From Afifella aestuarii (GTDB lineage Bacteria; Pseudomonadota; Alphaproteobacteria; Rhizobiales; Afifellaceae): 64,000 bases of DNA. Positions 183 to 12,600 of this stretch are shown one piece after another. A program made the position numbers and the translations under genes. Every line of letters starts with the position of its first letter. Position 1 is the first letter of the stretch. Below the pieces are notes generated by a model, which was given only the letters and a program-made list of their open reading frames with translations, was not told the origin of the DNA and searched no databases. The DNA is taken from assembly GCF_004023665.1 (NCBI RefSeq), contig NZ_SAUF01000002.1, forward strand, positions 868,001-932,000, in the 5' to 3' direction.

Positions 183-1022
183 TCAGGCCTTCATCAGGGC
201 GAGGCCGCAGGCGATGCAGGCGGCCGAGATCCAGCGCCAGCGGCTGACGGGTTCGCGCAGGACGAAGGCGGCGATGAGCGCGGCAAAGAGGATGCTCGAT
301 TCGCGCAGTGCGGCGACGAGCGCGATCGGCGCCTGGGTGAACGCCCAGACCGCGATCCAATAAGAGCCGAGCGACATCGCCCCGGCGGCGACGCCGCTTT
401 TCCAGGCGGGCCGGAGGCCGACGAAGGCGGCGCGGCCATGCCGGAGGGCGATGAAGGCCGTGAGGAGAGCGGTATCGCCGATGACCATCCACAGGACGAA
501 GCCGGACGCTGTGCCGGCGACGCGCGCGCCGAGCCCGTCGAGAAGCGTGTAGCTTGCGGTGAAGCCGGCCGTGCCGAGGGCGAAGAAGAGGGCATGCCCG
601 TCCATGCGGCCGGAGGTGGAGCCCTTCGCCGCCATCAGGAGAATCCCGGCCGAGATGGCGCCGATGGCGACCAGAGCGGACGGCGCAAAGGTGGCATCGA
701 GAAACAGGACGGAGATGACCGTGACGAAGATCGGCGCGGCGCCGCGGGCGAGCGGATAGGCCTGGCTGAGATCGGCGCGCGCATAGGCTTCGATGAGAAA
801 GAGCTTGTAGCCCGCATGAAGGGCGGCCGCAGCCACGATCATCGGCACGGCGGCAGCCGCCGGCCGGTCGACGAAGGGCAGCGCGACAGCGGCGATCGCC
901 GCCTGCGCGATGGCGAGGAGCAGGATCGTGGAGACACGGTCGAGCCCGACCTTCACCACGGAATTCCATCCGGCATGGAGAAGGGCGGCGAGGATGACCG
1001 CGGCGAAGACGTGATTGTCCAT
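183..1022 (-). CDS. EamA/DMT-family transporter
   Basis: 279 residues, almost wholly hydrophobic, forming about ten membrane segments in two EamA repeats (roughly residues 5-135 and 145-278). The second repeat has the typical RESSILFAALIAAFVLREP segment. Such inner-membrane proteins export or import metabolites; the substrate cannot be told. It is transcribed away from the LysR gene at 1161, an arrangement very common for EamA/LysR pairs, and its stop lies only 7 bases from the portal stop on the opposite strand. It is foreign to the GTA cluster that surrounds it. Confidence 0.9.
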   Translation of the reverse strand: MDNHVFAAVILAALLHAGWNSVVKVGLDRVSTILLLAIAQAAIAAVALPFVDRPAAAAVPMIVAAAALHAGYKLFLIEAYARADLSQAYPLARGAAPIFVTVISVLFLDATFAPSALVAIGAISAGILLMAAKGSTSGRMDGHALFFALGTAGFTASYTLLDGLGARVAGTASGFVLWMVIGDTALLTAFIALRHGRAAFVGLRPAWKSGVAAGAMSLGSYWIAVWAFTQAPIALVAALRESSILFAALIAAFVLREPVSRWRWISAACIACGLALMKA

Positions 1023-1126: not shown

Positions 1127-1160
1127 ATGATTCCTGGCGCGTGATGTGAGGAAAACGCAC

Positions 1161-2042
1161 ATGAAGCGCGGCGCTCTTCCGCTCAATGCCCTGCGCGCCT
1201 TCGAGGCGACGATGCGGCACGGCCAGATGCGGCTTGCCGCCGACGAGCTCGGCGTGACGCATGGCGCTGTCAGCCGCCAGGTGCGGCTTTTGGAGGAGAT
1301 CCTGCAGGTTCCGCTGTTCGAGGGGCCGCGCAACAAGCTGATGCCGACGCAGACGGCGCTGGAGCTCGAGCCGGCCCTGACGGAAGCCTTCGACGGCATC
1401 GAGGTGGCGGTCGCCCGCGCCATGCAGCGTGAGAGCCGGTTTCTCGACGTGTCGTGTACGGGGACGCTCGCTATGCGCTGGCTGATCCCGCGGCTCGTCG
1501 ATTTCCAGACGGCGCATCCGAAGATCGAGGTGCGGCTGACCGGCGAGTACGGGCCGGTGGATTTCTCCCGCCATCGTTTCGACGTGGCGATCCGCGTCGG
1601 CCGCGCGCCCTGGGGCGATGCGGAGGTGACGGAGCTGTTTGCCGAGGCGGCCGGTCCGGTGGTGAGTCCGAAATGTGCCGCGAGCGTCGATCTTGATGGG
1701 CCGGAGATGCTTCACGCGCTGCCGGCGCTGCATACCAAGACGCGGCCGGCGGCCTGGGCGGACTGGTGCCGGGGACAGGATTTGCCACCGCCGGCGGGCG
1801 GCCGTGTCTTCGAGCATTTTTATTTCCTGCTCGAAGCCGCGACGGCCGGGCTCGGCGTGGCGATCGCGCCGGAAGTGCTGGTGCGCGACGATGTGGCGGC
1901 GGGGCGGCTCTTGGCGCCCTTCGGCTTCGCCCCGACGGGGCAGGCCTATGTCGCACTGAGGCCGCGCCGACCGAACCGCGACGCGCAGCTCTTCATCGCA
2001 TGGCTGGAAGACGCGGCGATGGCGCCCGGTACGCCAGGCTGA
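1161..2042 (+). CDS. LysR-family transcriptional regulator (GcvA/AmpR-like)
   Basis: 293 residues from ATG 1161, chosen because a TGAGG ribosome site lies 9 bases upstream; an in-frame GTG at 1146 would overlap that site. The N-terminal winged helix-turn-helix (about residues 7-65, LNALRAFEATMRHGQM onward) has the variant typical of the GcvA/AmpR branch. It is followed by a periplasmic-binding-like effector domain (about 90-290). It probably controls the divergent EamA gene. Only 57 bases separate its stop from the GTA gene g3.5, so read-through from its promoter could feed the downstream GTA genes. Confidence 0.92.
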   Translation: MKRGALPLNALRAFEATMRHGQMRLAADELGVTHGAVSRQVRLLEEILQVPLFEGPRNKLMPTQTALELEPALTEAFDGIEVAVARAMQRESRFLDVSCTGTLAMRWLIPRLVDFQTAHPKIEVRLTGEYGPVDFSRHRFDVAIRVGRAPWGDAEVTELFAEAAGPVVSPKCAASVDLDGPEMLHALPALHTKTRPAAWADWCRGQDLPPPAGGRVFEHFYFLLEAATAGLGVAIAPEVLVRDDVAAGRLLAPFGFAPTGQAYVALRPRRPNRDAQLFIAWLEDAAMAPGTPG

Positions 2043-6072: not shown

Positions 6073-6480
6073 ATGAGTGCCCAGAAAGGCAAGGACCTGC
6101 TCCTGAAACTGGAGCGGGACGGACAATTCGTGACTGTCGCCGGGCTTCGCGCCAGGCGGATTTCGTTCAACCAGGCGAGCGTCGACATCACCAATACCGA
6201 TTCCGCCGGGCGCTGGCGCGAGCTCTTGGAGGGCGCGGGCGTGAAACGGGCCGGGCTTTCCGGCTCCGGCGTGTTTCGCGACCAGGCGAGCGACGCGACG
6301 ATCCGCGAGATCTTCTTTGCCGGCACGATCGTCGCCTGGCAGGTGGTGATCCCGGATTTCGGCACGGTGACGGGCCCGTTTCAGGTGACGGGGCTTGAAT
6401 ATTCCGGCGAGCATGACGGCGAGGTCGCCTACGATCTGGCGCTGGAATCGGCCGGCGAACTCGCCTTTGCGGCGTTGTGA
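6073..6480 (+). CDS. GTA major tail protein (g9)
   Basis: 135 residues beginning MSAQKGKDLLLKLERDG. The ITNTDSAGRWRELLEGAGVK segment is diagnostic of the phage/GTA major tail tube protein. It polymerises into the tail tube. The 142-bp gap before it (5931-6072) holds no gene; within it AGACGCC (6024-6030) and GGCGTCT (6037-6043) form a 7-bp hairpin without a T run. GGGAG precedes the start. Confidence 0.92.
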   Translation: MSAQKGKDLLLKLERDGQFVTVAGLRARRISFNQASVDITNTDSAGRWRELLEGAGVKRAGLSGSGVFRDQASDATIREIFFAGTIVAWQVVIPDFGTVTGPFQVTGLEYSGEHDGEVAYDLALESAGELAFAAL

Positions 6481-6492
6481 GCGGAGGCGGAG

Positions 6493-6858
6493 ATGGCGAA
6501 TTTCCATCGCGGCGAGATCGATGCGGTGCTCGGCGGCGAGACGCGCAGGCTCTGTTTGACGCTCGGTGCGCTCGCCGAGCTCGAAGCCGCCTTCAAGGCC
6601 GACGATCTGGTGGCGCTTGCCGCGCGCTTCGAGACGGGCCGGCTGTCGGCCCGCGATCTCATCCGCATCCTGGGTGCGGGTCTGAGAGGCGCGGGCGAAG
6701 CGATCTCCGACGACGAGGTGGCGGTGTTGCGGTCGGACGGGGGTGCGGCCGGCTTTGCCAGGATCGCGGCGGAGCTTTTGCGGGCGACGTTCGGTGGGTC
6801 GCAGGGGGACCATGGAGGTTCCGGCGCTCCGGGGGATCCCCCAAAAAACCCTCTTTAG
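6493..6858 (+). CDS. GTA tail assembly chaperone, short form (g10, GTA-gp10)
   Basis: 121 residues from ATG 6493, with GGAGGCGGAG just upstream. The pattern GEIDAVLGGETRRLCLTLGALAELEAAF is the GTA-gp10 signature. The gene lies between major tail protein and tape measure, where phages place the chaperone that coats the tape measure during tail assembly. It stops at TAG 6856-6858, seven bases after an in-frame A AAA AAC slippery heptamer. A share of ribosomes shifting -1 there would make the longer g10-g10.1 product. Confidence 0.92.
   Translation: MANFHRGEIDAVLGGETRRLCLTLGALAELEAAFKADDLVALAARFETGRLSARDLIRILGAGLRGAGEAISDDEVAVLRSDGGAAGFARIAAELLRATFGGSQGDHGGSGAPGDPPKNPL
6843..6849 (+). promoter_or_regulatory. 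Probable -1 ribosomal frameshift site, A AAA AAC
   Basis: In the g10 frame the codons are CCA AAA AAC CCT CTT TAG (6841-6858). The bases A AAA AAC at 6843-6849 are phased exactly as the canonical X XXY YYZ heptamer. Slipping back one base continues as CCC TCT TTA GCC into the g10.1 frame. The 12-bp palindrome GGGGGATCCCCC (6831-6842) abuts the site upstream. A 5-bp stem, AAGGC/GCCTT (6877-6881/6888-6892), lies 27 bases downstream. The role of these flanks is inference. Confidence 0.8.
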
Positions 6859-7070
6859 CCGCGGGCGGTGCGAGAGAAGGCGCAAAAGCCTTTCCCTGGC
6901 AGGAGGCGATCGCCTTCGGCCTTGCCGTTCTGCGGCTTTCTCCTCGCGATTTCTGGGCGATGACGCCGCGCGAGTTTTCGGCCTGCCGCACGGCTTTGTG
7001 CGGGGCAGGCAAGACGCCGCTCACAGCGGGTGAGCTTGCACAGCTGATGGCGCGCTTTCCCGATCGGTAG
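6849..7070 (+). CDS. GTA tail assembly chaperone extension (g10.1), made by -1 frameshift from g10
   Basis: This frame encodes WQEAIAFGLAVLRLSPRDFW followed by AMTPREFSA and ends at TAG 7068-7070. It matches the small g10.1/DUF2376-type tail chaperone of GTAs. From 6477 to ATG 6960 the frame contains no ATG, GTG or TTG codon except the GTG at 6477, which overlaps the end of g9. The conserved core therefore has no usable start of its own. The simplest reading is a g10-g10.1 fusion of 192 residues made by the -1 shift at 6843-6849, as with lambda gpG/gpGT. Confidence 0.82.
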   Translation, partial: PSLAAGGAREGAKAFPWQEAIAFGLAVLRLSPRDFWAMTPREFSACRTALCGAGKTPLTAGELAQLMARFPDR

Positions 7071-7073
7071 GAC

Positions 7074-7664
7074 ATGATGGCAGACGATTTCGATTTCGGC
7101 TCGGACGAGTTGTCCGGGAGCGCTGAGGCACTGTCGGCGACGCTCGGCGACCTTCAGCATCTGGCGGACAGGTTCGGGCGCTCCATGACGAGCGCCTTCC
7201 GCCAGGCGGCAGTGGAGGGACGACGCTTCGACAGCGTGTTGAAAAGCCTGGCGCTCGGGCTGTCGCGCCGTGCCCTCAATGCCGCGCTCGCGCCGATCGC
7301 GGGCGGGCTGTCCGGCGCGCTTACTTCTGTGTTCGGATCGTTTTTGGGCGGTTTCGGCCAAGGCGGGGTGTTTGCGGGCGGCAAGGTCACCCCCTTTGCT
7401 TCGGGCGGGGTCGTTGCCGCGCCGAGCTATTTTCAGACGGGCAGCGGCATCGGCCTGATGGGGGAGGCGGGGGCGGAGGCGATCCTGCCCTTGCGGCGCG
7501 GCGCCGACGGCAGGCTCGGTGTTGCAGCCGCGGGCGCCGGGGGGCCGCCCCTCCACGTCACCTTCAACGTGACGACGCAAGATGCGGCGAGCTTCCGCCG
7601 GTCCGAAGCCGAAATGACGGCGATGCTGGCGCGTGCCGTGTCGCGCGGCCGGCGGGGGCTGTGA
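7074..7664 (+). CDS. GTA tape measure protein (g11), short
   Basis: 196 residues, starting two or five bases after the chaperone (ATG 7074 or 7077). It has a helical N-terminal half (LGDLQHLADRFGRSMTSAFR), a Gly/Ala-rich hydrophobic centre and the GVVAAPSYFQTGSG...LMGEAGAEAILPL motif found at the C-terminus of phage tape measure proteins. It is far shorter than phage tape measures, which fits the short tails of GTAs. It sets tail length and may help DNA cross the membrane. Confidence 0.88.
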   Translation: MMADDFDFGSDELSGSAEALSATLGDLQHLADRFGRSMTSAFRQAAVEGRRFDSVLKSLALGLSRRALNAALAPIAGGLSGALTSVFGSFLGGFGQGGVFAGGKVTPFASGGVVAAPSYFQTGSGIGLMGEAGAEAILPLRRGADGRLGVAAAGAGGPPLHVTFNVTTQDAASFRRSEAEMTAMLARAVSRGRRGL

Positions 7665-9683: not shown

Positions 9684-12600
9684 TGGCGACGCTTCTGTTG
9701 AGCGCGGCGGGCGCGAGCCTTGGCGGCATTTTCGGTGGGGTGGGGGCGATCGCCGGACGCGCGCTCGGCGCGCTTGCGGGCTATGCGATCGATCGCAGCG
9801 TATTTTCCACCGAGCGCAAGGCGGAGGGCGCGCGGCTTTCCGACCTGACCGTGCAGAGTTCGACCGAAGGTGCCCCGATCCCGCGCGTCTATGGCCGCGT
9901 GCGTCTGGCCGGCCAGGTGATCTGGGCGACGGATTTCGAGGAAGTCGCGACGACCGACACGCAGCGCGCGGGCGGCAAGGGCGGCGGCAGCAAGGTGACG
10001 ACGACCACCTACAGCTACTTCGCCAATTTTGCCGTGGCGCTGTGCGAAGGCGAGGTGGCGCATATCGGCAGGATCTGGGCGGACGGAAAGCCGCTCGATC
10101 CCTCACTCGTCACCTTGCGCATCTATAAGGGCAGCGAGGACCAATTGCCCGATCCTTTGATTGCCGCGCATGAGGAGGAGCCGCCGGCCTATCGTGGCAC
10201 CGCCTATGTCGTCTTCGAGCGTCTGGCGCTGGCAGAATTCGGCAATCGCATTCCGCAGCTCTCATTCGAGATTTTGCGCCCCGTCGGCAGCATCGAAAAG
10301 GATATCCGCGCCGTCTGCATGATCCCCGGCGCGGGCGAGTTCGTCTACGACACCGCGCTTCGCCTCAGTGAGGGCGATCCCGGCACCTATGCCACCGCCA
10401 ACACCTTTGCCCGCCGCGAGGAGGCGGATTTCGAGACCTCGCTCGACGAGCTCATGGATCTCTGCCCGCGGCTTGAATGGGTGACGCTGGTCGTCGCCTG
10501 GTTCGGCAACGATCTGCGCGCACCTGAATGCCTGATCCAGCCGATGGTCGACGATGCCCATAAGCGGATCTCCGGCGGCGACTGGTCGGTGGCGGGGCTT
10601 ACCCGCGGCGAGGCGGAGGTCGTCTCCTATATCGACGGACGGGCGGCCTATGGCGGCACGCCGAGCGACGAGACGGTCATCAGGGCGATCCGCGAACTGA
10701 AGGCGCGCGGCCTGAAGGTGGCGCTTCTGCCCTTCGTGCTGATGGATGTCGCGGCGGACAATGCGCTTCCCGATCCGAGAAGCGGCGAGGCGGGGCAGCC
10801 GCCCTATCCCTGGCGCGGGCGCATCACGCTGTCGGTAGCGCCGGGTCGTGCCGGTTCGCCCGACAAGAGCGCGGCGGCGGCAGACGAGATCGCGGATTTT
10901 CTGGGCGAGGCGTCGCTTGGCCAGTTTTCGGTGGGCGCCGGGGGTGTTTCTTATTCCGGGCCGACGGATTGGCGCTATCGCCGCTTCATCCTGCACAATG
11001 CGCATCTGGCGAAGGCGGCGGGCGGGGTCGACGCGTTTCTCGTCGGCTCGGAAATGGTGGCGCTGAGCCAGATCCGCGGGCAGGGGAACCGCTATCCCTT
11101 CGTCGAGGCGCTGGGCGTGCTGCGTGGCGAATGCCGGCAGGTTCTGGGGGCGGCGACAAGGATCTCCTATGCGGCCGACTGGTCGGAATATTTCGGTCAT
11201 CAGCCGGCGGATGGCTCCGGCGACGTCTTCTTCCATCTCGACCCGTTCTGGGCGGAGGCCGATTTCGTCGGCATCGACATTTACTGGCCGCTCGCCGACT
11301 GGCGCGACGAGCCGGGCCATGCCGACGAGGCGGCGGGGAGGTCGATCTACCGCTGCGATTATCTGCGCAAGAACCTCGCGGCCGGCGAAGGCTTCGACTG
11401 GTATTATGCCTCCGACGAGGACCGGAAGGCACAGCGGCGCAGCAGGGTCACCGACGGGACGGCGGGAAAGCCCTGGGTGTTTCGCTTCAAGGACATCGAG
11501 AGCTGGTGGGAAAACCGGCATTACGACCGGCCCGGCGGCGTGGAACAGGCGACGCCGACGGCCTGGGTGCCGTTGTCGAAACCGATCTGGTTCACCGAAT
11601 TCGGCTGTCCGGCCGTCGATAAGGGCGCGAACCAGCCGAACGTTTTTTACGATCCAAAATCCTCGGAAGGCGCGCTGCCGCATTTTTCCGCCGGCGAGCG
11701 CGATGATCTGATCCAGCGGCGCACCATCGAGGCGCTTCTGTCCGCCTATGACCCGAGCCATGCCGATTATGCGGGGATGAACCGGGATGGGCCGAACGGT
11801 CCGATGGTCGATCCGGCGCATCTCACACTGTGGACCTGGGATGCGCGGCCCTATCCCTGGTTTCCCGCGCTCGAGGATGTCTGGGGCGATGCGCCGAACT
11901 GGCGGTTCGGACACTGGCTCAACGGTCGGCTCGGCGCCATGGACCTTGCCCGTCTGATCGAGGCGGTGCTGTCGGATCACGGTTTCGATGCGGCGGAAGT
12001 TGTCGATGTGCACGGGCTCGTCGAGGGGTTCGTCGTCGGCGAGCGGTCATCGGCACGCGCGACGCTCGAACCGCTTTTGTCCGCCTATGGTGTCGATGCG
12101 GCGGATGCCGGCACGACAATCCGCTTTCGCGGGCGCGCGCGGCCGCTTGATGCGAGCCTGTCGGACACGCGGCTCGTCGATGCGGCCGATGCGCCGCTGA
12201 CCACGCGGCGGCGGGCGCAGGAGACGGAGCTTGCCGCGGAAGTGGCACTGCGCACTCTGTCTCCCGACAACGATTACCGCATGGCGGCGGCGCATTCGCG
12301 CCGGCTCGCCGGGGGAAGCCGGCGCGTCCTGACGCTCGATCTGCCGATCGTGGCGCGCGATGCGGAGGCCGAAGCGCTCGCCGAGGCGATGCTCGCCGAT
12401 CTGTGGCGGGGGCGTGAGGAGATCTCCTTCGCGCTGCCGCCGAGTTGTTCCGCGCTCGATGCGGGCGATGCGGTGCGGCTCACCCTGGAGGGGCGTTCGG
12501 ACACGTTTCTGGTGACGCGGATTGCCGATGGCGAGGCACGTGAGGTGGAGGCGCGGCGGGTGACGTTGCGGCGGAAGGCGATGGTGCCGGCCACGCCGAC

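Follow-up and report, generated by a model that had tools for sequence, protein, structure and literature searches.

The -1 ribosomal frameshift in tail assembly chaperone genes of the lambda gpG/gpGT type was reportedly described by Xu, Hendrix and Duda in 2004. Frameshifting of this type in tail chaperones has been reviewed (PMC5009743), and phages of Rhodobacter capsulatus have also been reported to carry -1 frameshifts in their tail genes (PMC4882933, PMC8601537). The corresponding genes of the GTA of R. capsulatus (RcGTA), g10 and g10.1 (g10.5 in one paper), are described as separate genes, "tail chaperone 1" and "tail chaperone 2" (PMC11409702), and a Wolbachia GTA paper dealing with frameshifting concerns a +1 candidate in a hydrolase (PMC10299305). 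The earlier note on this DNA knew of no report of frameshifting in GTAs, and none was found for GTA tail chaperones in the open-access literature. A frameshift fusion of these proteins is apparently unreported so far, and the same recoding is already known from viruses, namely phages. The rules of slippage have been measured in E. coli, where motifs with UUN or AAN are more shift-prone than those with CCN or GGN and where cognate A-site re-pairing (ZZN to ZZZ) is favoured; the stimulation of bacterial -1 frameshifting by an upstream Shine-Dalgarno (SD)-like sequence has been described as well (PMC4066793).

The window analysed here is a stretch of 64,000 nucleotides from Afifella aestuarii. 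It contains a GTA head-tail cluster in which capsid, tail completion protein, g9, g10, g10.1, g11, DUF2460 and baseplate hub proteins are recognisable, whereas the portal gene lies just upstream (G000:C2:867163-868155) and reaches into the window with its last part, bases 1-155. The gene order is that of GTAs and the tape measure is short, scoring below the cut-off of the RcGTA_tape model, so that the cluster is of the RcGTA type. An EamA-family transporter (183-1022, minus strand) and a LysR regulator (1146-2042, plus strand) interrupt the cluster after the portal gene, which ends at about 155, and before the small gene that precedes the prohead protease. Directly downstream of the cluster, the segment 14610-15277 (minus strand) holds a ParD-family antitoxin ORF, whose neighbour reads like a ParE toxin, with no Pfam match at 0.001. 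The features on which the following discussion depends are:

6073..6480, plus strand: g9, major tail (tube) protein (PF06199, 4.8e-46; TIGR02126, 2.4e-33; PHROG 1407, major tail protein).
6493..6858, plus strand: g10, tail assembly chaperone 1, 121 aa, zero-frame product (PF11836 "Phage_TAC_11, GTA-gp10", 1.1e-30).
6814..6819, plus strand: GGAGGT, SD-like sequence, candidate upstream stimulator, weak in the window (from the sequence).
6843..6849, plus strand: A_AAA_AAC heptamer in -1 phase, probable genus-level extension (present in G000, the window's genome, and in G001 and G002; absent in the congener G004).
6846..6852, plus strand: A_AAC_CCT heptamer in -1 phase, most likely slippery site (window's family and other families).
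6856..6858, plus strand: TAG, stop codon of g10 (from the sequence).
6849..7070, plus strand: g10.1, tail assembly chaperone 2 domain, 73 aa, in the -1 frame only (PF09550 "Phage_TAC_6", 9.8e-18; TIGR02216, rcc01693 family, 3.5e-17).
7074..7664, plus strand: g11, short GTA-type tape measure, 196 aa (NF058675 RcGTA_tape, 2e-48, 165 bits against a cut-off of 220 bits).

Thus, g10 and g10.1 are placed between the major tail protein g9 and the tape measure g11. Judged by family and fold, both belong to tail-assembly-chaperone families. In BFVD, viral tail assembly chaperones are similar to the AlphaFold model of g10 (pLDDT 88), with a best E of 3.6e-4; a fold search of the PDB returned no match, and profile matches to TAL effectors were dismissed as chance.

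In the phase of g10, positions 6841-6858 read CCA AAA AAC CCT CTT TAG. Direct reading of the sequence confirms what the earlier note had claimed for the end of this gene, including the heptamer A_AAA_AAC in X_XXY_YYZ phase. This heptamer stands six bases (CCTCTT) before the TAG at 6856 and is overlapped by a second phased heptamer, A_AAC_CCT, which the note had overlooked. The frame of g10.1 is open from 6477 to 7070 and, again as the note had claimed, its GTG at 6477 is followed by no other ATG, GTG or TTG until 6960, within the conserved FWAMTPREF segment. The rarer table-11 start codons of this frame fall either inside g10 (CTG 6552) or inside the g10.1 domain (ATC 6909 and CTG 6930), and none of any kind occurs in the window between the slip site and that domain. 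The second ORF accordingly lies in the -1 frame, overlaps the end of the first and has no start of its own, which is the lambda G/GT configuration. The fusion predicted from it is 192 aa long and runs through ...PPKN-PSLAAGG.... Both heptamers would yield the identical peptide (PKNPSL), so that they are inseparable by mass spectrometry. A heptamer scan of the open frames of the GTA cluster other than g4, g7/g8 and g14 found a single other strong in-phase heptamer, GGGAAAG at 11464 in g15, probably there by chance.

The reading that we prefer, with a probability of roughly 0.88, is that g10 and g10.1 form one recoded locus expressed by a programmed -1 frameshift, most likely at A_AAC_CCT. Most ribosomes would stop at the TAG at 6856 and release the 121-aa chaperone g10, and a minority would move back by one base on A_AAA_AAC_CCT (6843-6852), most probably on its A_AAC_CCT part, and read on through g10.1 to make the 192-aa fusion. 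By analogy with lambda gpG/gpGT, the excess of g10 would coat the tape measure g11, and the g10.1 domain of the fusion would recruit the tube protein g9, chaperone roles that the two domain identities support. The phase of the site, the missing starts and the identity of both domains are observed in the window, and conservation and the association with SD-like motifs in a comparison across species; slippage in cells, its level, the heptamer used and the chaperone roles are inferred.

For this comparison, we looked for PF09550 in genomes from the family, order and class of the window and in four additional samples at family level; 11 named genome records and 120 extra stretches were added. A first set of 196 loci, 179 of which had the -1 arrangement, was enlarged and deduplicated to 271 distinct alphaproteobacterial g10/g10.1 junctions in the -1 arrangement. 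A start codon for g10.1 (ATG, GTG or TTG) is present between the two domains in 167 of these and absent from 104. Strong heptamers occur in the correct phase in 82 of the 104 no-start junctions, against 5 and 8 in the two wrong phases, and against 6.1 ± 2.4 (maximum 13) in 200 codon shuffles of the same linkers. Since the shuffles take no account of the constraint on the encoded PFPW motif, the excess of the CCCTTTC class may be overstated. Strong heptamers (CCCTTT, AAACCC, GGGAAA, AAAAAA and CCCAAA) were defined after the first sample had been seen; the count of any phased X_XXY_YYZ heptamer, 90 of 104 against 10 and 10 in the other phases, is independent of that choice. The surveyed loci are related, and such counts are not independent of one another. 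The no-start loci with a strong heptamer come from 19 of the 46 coded families. The alignment of many junctions that the earlier note had proposed as a check thus clearly favours frameshifting, and its -1 reading gains comparative support.

The strong heptamer is missing from 22 of the 104 no-start loci. In the first sample, 13 of 19 no-start loci of this kind carried an in-phase C_CCT tetramer (other phases 2 and 2; 7.2 ± 1.7 expected), which leaves the remainder unexplained. The tetramer is frequent in the linkers of heptamer-less no-start junctions of families f28, f42 and f52 (e.g., L083, L143, L174, L193 and L129), where it is possibly a minimal tRNA-Pro slip site. Of the 15 loci with g10.1 in the +1 or the 0 frame, 14 provide it with a separate start. 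In L089 (f11), g10.1 is in the +1 frame without a start codon, with CGCCCTTGA at the g10 stop, an arrangement for which a sequencing error or a different solution is possible. The tail of g10, from the end of its domain to the stop, has a median length of 64.5 nt in no-start loci versus 18 nt in start loci, which fits with the length that the linker of a fusion needs. The ORF after g10.1, followed in the 69 loci whose downstream sequence was long enough, is mostly about 160-240 aa in start and no-start groups alike, the size of a short GTA tape measure. In a few of them it is much longer or shorter, and some prophages may be among the surveyed loci.

The motifs enriched in no-start loci agree broadly with the rules measured in E. 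coli. CCCTTT was observed 51 times versus 3.6 expected, AAACCC 20 versus 0.79, GGGAAA 13 versus 1.3 and AAAAAA 4 versus 0.2, and TTTCCC, which lies largely within the stretch coding for PFPW, 15 versus 1.7. Heptamers made only of G and C are not enriched (GGGCCC 1 versus 8.9 expected, CCCGGG 4 versus 7.2, GGGGGG 4 versus 6.5), and given those rules they work as an internal control. The same rules also weigh against the proposed sites to some degree, because CCN heptamers shift less in E. coli than those with AAN or UUN (PMC4066793). The base that follows AAACCC is T in 16 cases, C in 3 and G in 1. At the conserved FPW motif, the one usable result on TTT and TTC codons is a contrast (26/29 versus 4/19, Fisher 2e-6) that is confounded by relatedness; the plain codon test was dropped because TTT is also common in start loci, where no slip is expected (47 of 62).

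Furthermore, an SD-like motif stands 5-23 nt upstream of the slip site in 73 of the 82 no-start loci with a strong heptamer (27.6 ± 4.4 expected), with no enrichment at 24-42 nt (16 versus 27.2 expected). In the window, the GGAGGT is located about 24 nt before A_AAA_AAC and 27 nt before A_AAC_CCT, farther upstream than is typical. A downstream stem-loop was rejected as the stimulator, since the window shows no unusual fold (z -0.14) and 80 loci together give no signal (median z -0.18).

The earlier note had named A_AAA_AAC as the slip site. Its phase is correct, as claimed, but within the window's family (f1) this heptamer is restricted to the closest relatives, namely the window and two of the three sampled congeners (G001 and G002), whereas A_AAC_CCT is found in all 7 g10/g10.1 junctions of the family. 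The third congener, G004, reads CCG AAA AAC CCT and thus combines G_AAA_AAC with A_AAC_CCT. Among the congeners, AAAAACCCTC and TAGCCGC are invariant in an otherwise variable linker, whose indels are multiples of three. Outside f1, AAACCCT or AAACCCC reappears in further families, and named Aurantimonas and Rhizobium genomes have it as well. Because of its presence throughout f1 and its recurrence elsewhere, A_AAC_CCT is more likely the ancestral site and A_AAA_AAC a genus-level extension, whose extra adenines may strengthen A_AAC_CCT. That the frameshift happens at A_AAA_AAC, with AAACCCT being incidental, would be consistent with the phase of the former, with its proven activity in one enterobacterial IS cluster (PMC4066793), with the excess of AAAAAA heptamers in no-start loci and with the shared fusion peptide; it is nevertheless somewhat unlikely in view of the distribution in f1 and of the fact that each of the four AAAAAA loci carries AAACCC too. 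The mutant proposed in the earlier note, AAAAAAC changed to AAGAAAC, is ill suited as a test, as it leaves AAACCCT intact and could give a false negative. Two loci of f34, L136 and L156, have overlapping phased heptamers, A_AAC_CCT and C_CCT_TTC, at one site (AAACCCTTTC).

The remaining explanations do without a frameshift. One is re-initiation, whether independent or coupled, at a rare start codon close to the end of g10. For this gene pair it is made plausible by the ATGA, GTGA or TTGA overlaps of many relatives, including L002 of the window's own family, which has a TTG overlap (AAACCCTTGA). However, it is improbable here: the window offers no table-11 start between the slip site and the g10.1 domain, wrong-phase heptamers are scarce in the survey, and relatives of TTGA loci lack the TTG yet keep the heptamer (L010, AAACCCCTGA, beside L158, AAACCCTTGA). 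Even the TTGA loci have CCCT in phase, in 20 of 24 versus 8.1 expected. Transcriptional slippage on the A6 run at 6843-6848, giving a mixed mRNA population, is less probable again and was rejected, since the runs are too short and not conserved: known transcriptional slippage needs runs longer than A6, and the sites of relatives (AAACCCT, CCCTTTC and GGGAAAG) contain homopolymers of 3 only. Least credible of all is that the -1 frame represents a long separate gene starting at the GTG at 6477, or that g10.1 is a decaying remnant. The frame is indeed open from that GTG, which overlaps the g9 stop, but its upstream part is Arg-rich and unconserved, and in L002, L003, L005 and L006 it is interrupted by in-frame stops about 52-148 nt upstream of the g10 stop, so that the long ORF was discarded; as for decay, the g10.1 domain is conserved and open across 271 loci. 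An assembly error was rejected as well, the arrangement being common to the congeners and to more than 80 other loci.

The frameshift junction is not a general property of GTAs. Most other -1 junctions have an ATGA, GTGA or TTGA start-stop overlap, and a start codon overlaps or lies near the g10 stop in about 60% of the junctions examined. Families f6 and f16 have start-stop overlaps nearly throughout, mostly ATGA in f6 and mostly GTGA in f16, without a heptamer; in f34, f20, f12 and the greater part of f2 and f11, nearly every junction lacks a start and has a heptamer. Separate g10.1 starts and no strong heptamer characterise all 22 distinct junctions of f74 and all 27 of f64; because the f74 sample spans 149 genera, we infer f74 to be Rhodobacteraceae, to which R. 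capsulatus with its RcGTA belongs. On a tree of g10 plus g10.1, rough because the proteins are short, 28 changes are required to account for the no-start-plus-heptamer state, and well supported branches force no fewer than 8 of them, which suggests that recoding and start-stop overlap have interconverted repeatedly.

Since CCCT is in phase in most TTGA loci and sisters keep AAACCC without a TTG, some TTGA junctions may be sites of slippage at C_CCT_TGA instead of TTG starts. A broader and tentative proposal, somewhat short of even odds, is that alphaproteobacterial GTAs repeatedly switch between recoding and overlap, often via tRNA-Pro slippage on C_CCU, including slippage at the C_CCU_UGA stop of lineages in which this stop is overlapped by an apparent TTG start. 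If true, many junctions annotated with a "separate start" in the window's order would in fact be sites of frameshifting. Of the GTA-like records in the phage collection, the closest, L198 (MW091529.1) and L199 (MW462191.1), were deposited as "Bacteriophage sp." and look like GTA clusters with neighbouring efflux or regulator genes. Each has AAACCCTTGA at the junction, and the annotated g10.1 begins downstream of the slip site in both, in MW091529 inside the conserved domain.

Judged from sequence, many alphaproteobacterial GTA-type clusters share this arrangement. With it, the recoding event that is best conserved among tailed phages would extend to GTAs, which are maintained by their hosts and not by their own replication. 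A tuned slip site with an SD-like motif, kept in many families, implies continued selection on the stoichiometry of tail assembly and therefore functional GTA particles. The frameshift junction can also account for annotations in which g10.1 is absent or cut short. Close relatives manage with a normal start codon, so that the group provides a natural experiment to test whether tail assembly requires a covalent fusion and a fixed ratio.

Compared with RcGTA, the genes are homologous, in the order g9-g10-g10.1-g11 and of the same Pfam families, but the junctions of the inferred Rhodobacteraceae differ in having their own g10.1 start and no strong heptamer. Siphophages of R. capsulatus have a -1 frameshift in tail assembly chaperone genes, reported for the phages and not for the GTA. 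With dnaX and IS-type frameshifting the surveyed group shares an SD-like sequence upstream of the slippery motif, within 5-23 nt at the 73 sites counted above, whereas the gene and the motifs are others and no downstream stem-loop was found. Unlike lambda gpG/gpGT, the element is a domesticated GTA, Pro/Phe or Asn/Pro codon pairs (C_CCT_TTC, A_AAC_CCT) make up the majority of the sites, sister lineages initiate the same gene pair separately, and no conserved downstream structure was seen. Like lambda, the junction lies between tube protein and tape measure, has its X_XXY_YYZ site close to where the first ORF ends, and would shift in the -1 direction to give a short chaperone and an extended fusion; some relatives even use lambda's own heptamer, G_GGA_AAG (GGGAAAG), right before the stop.
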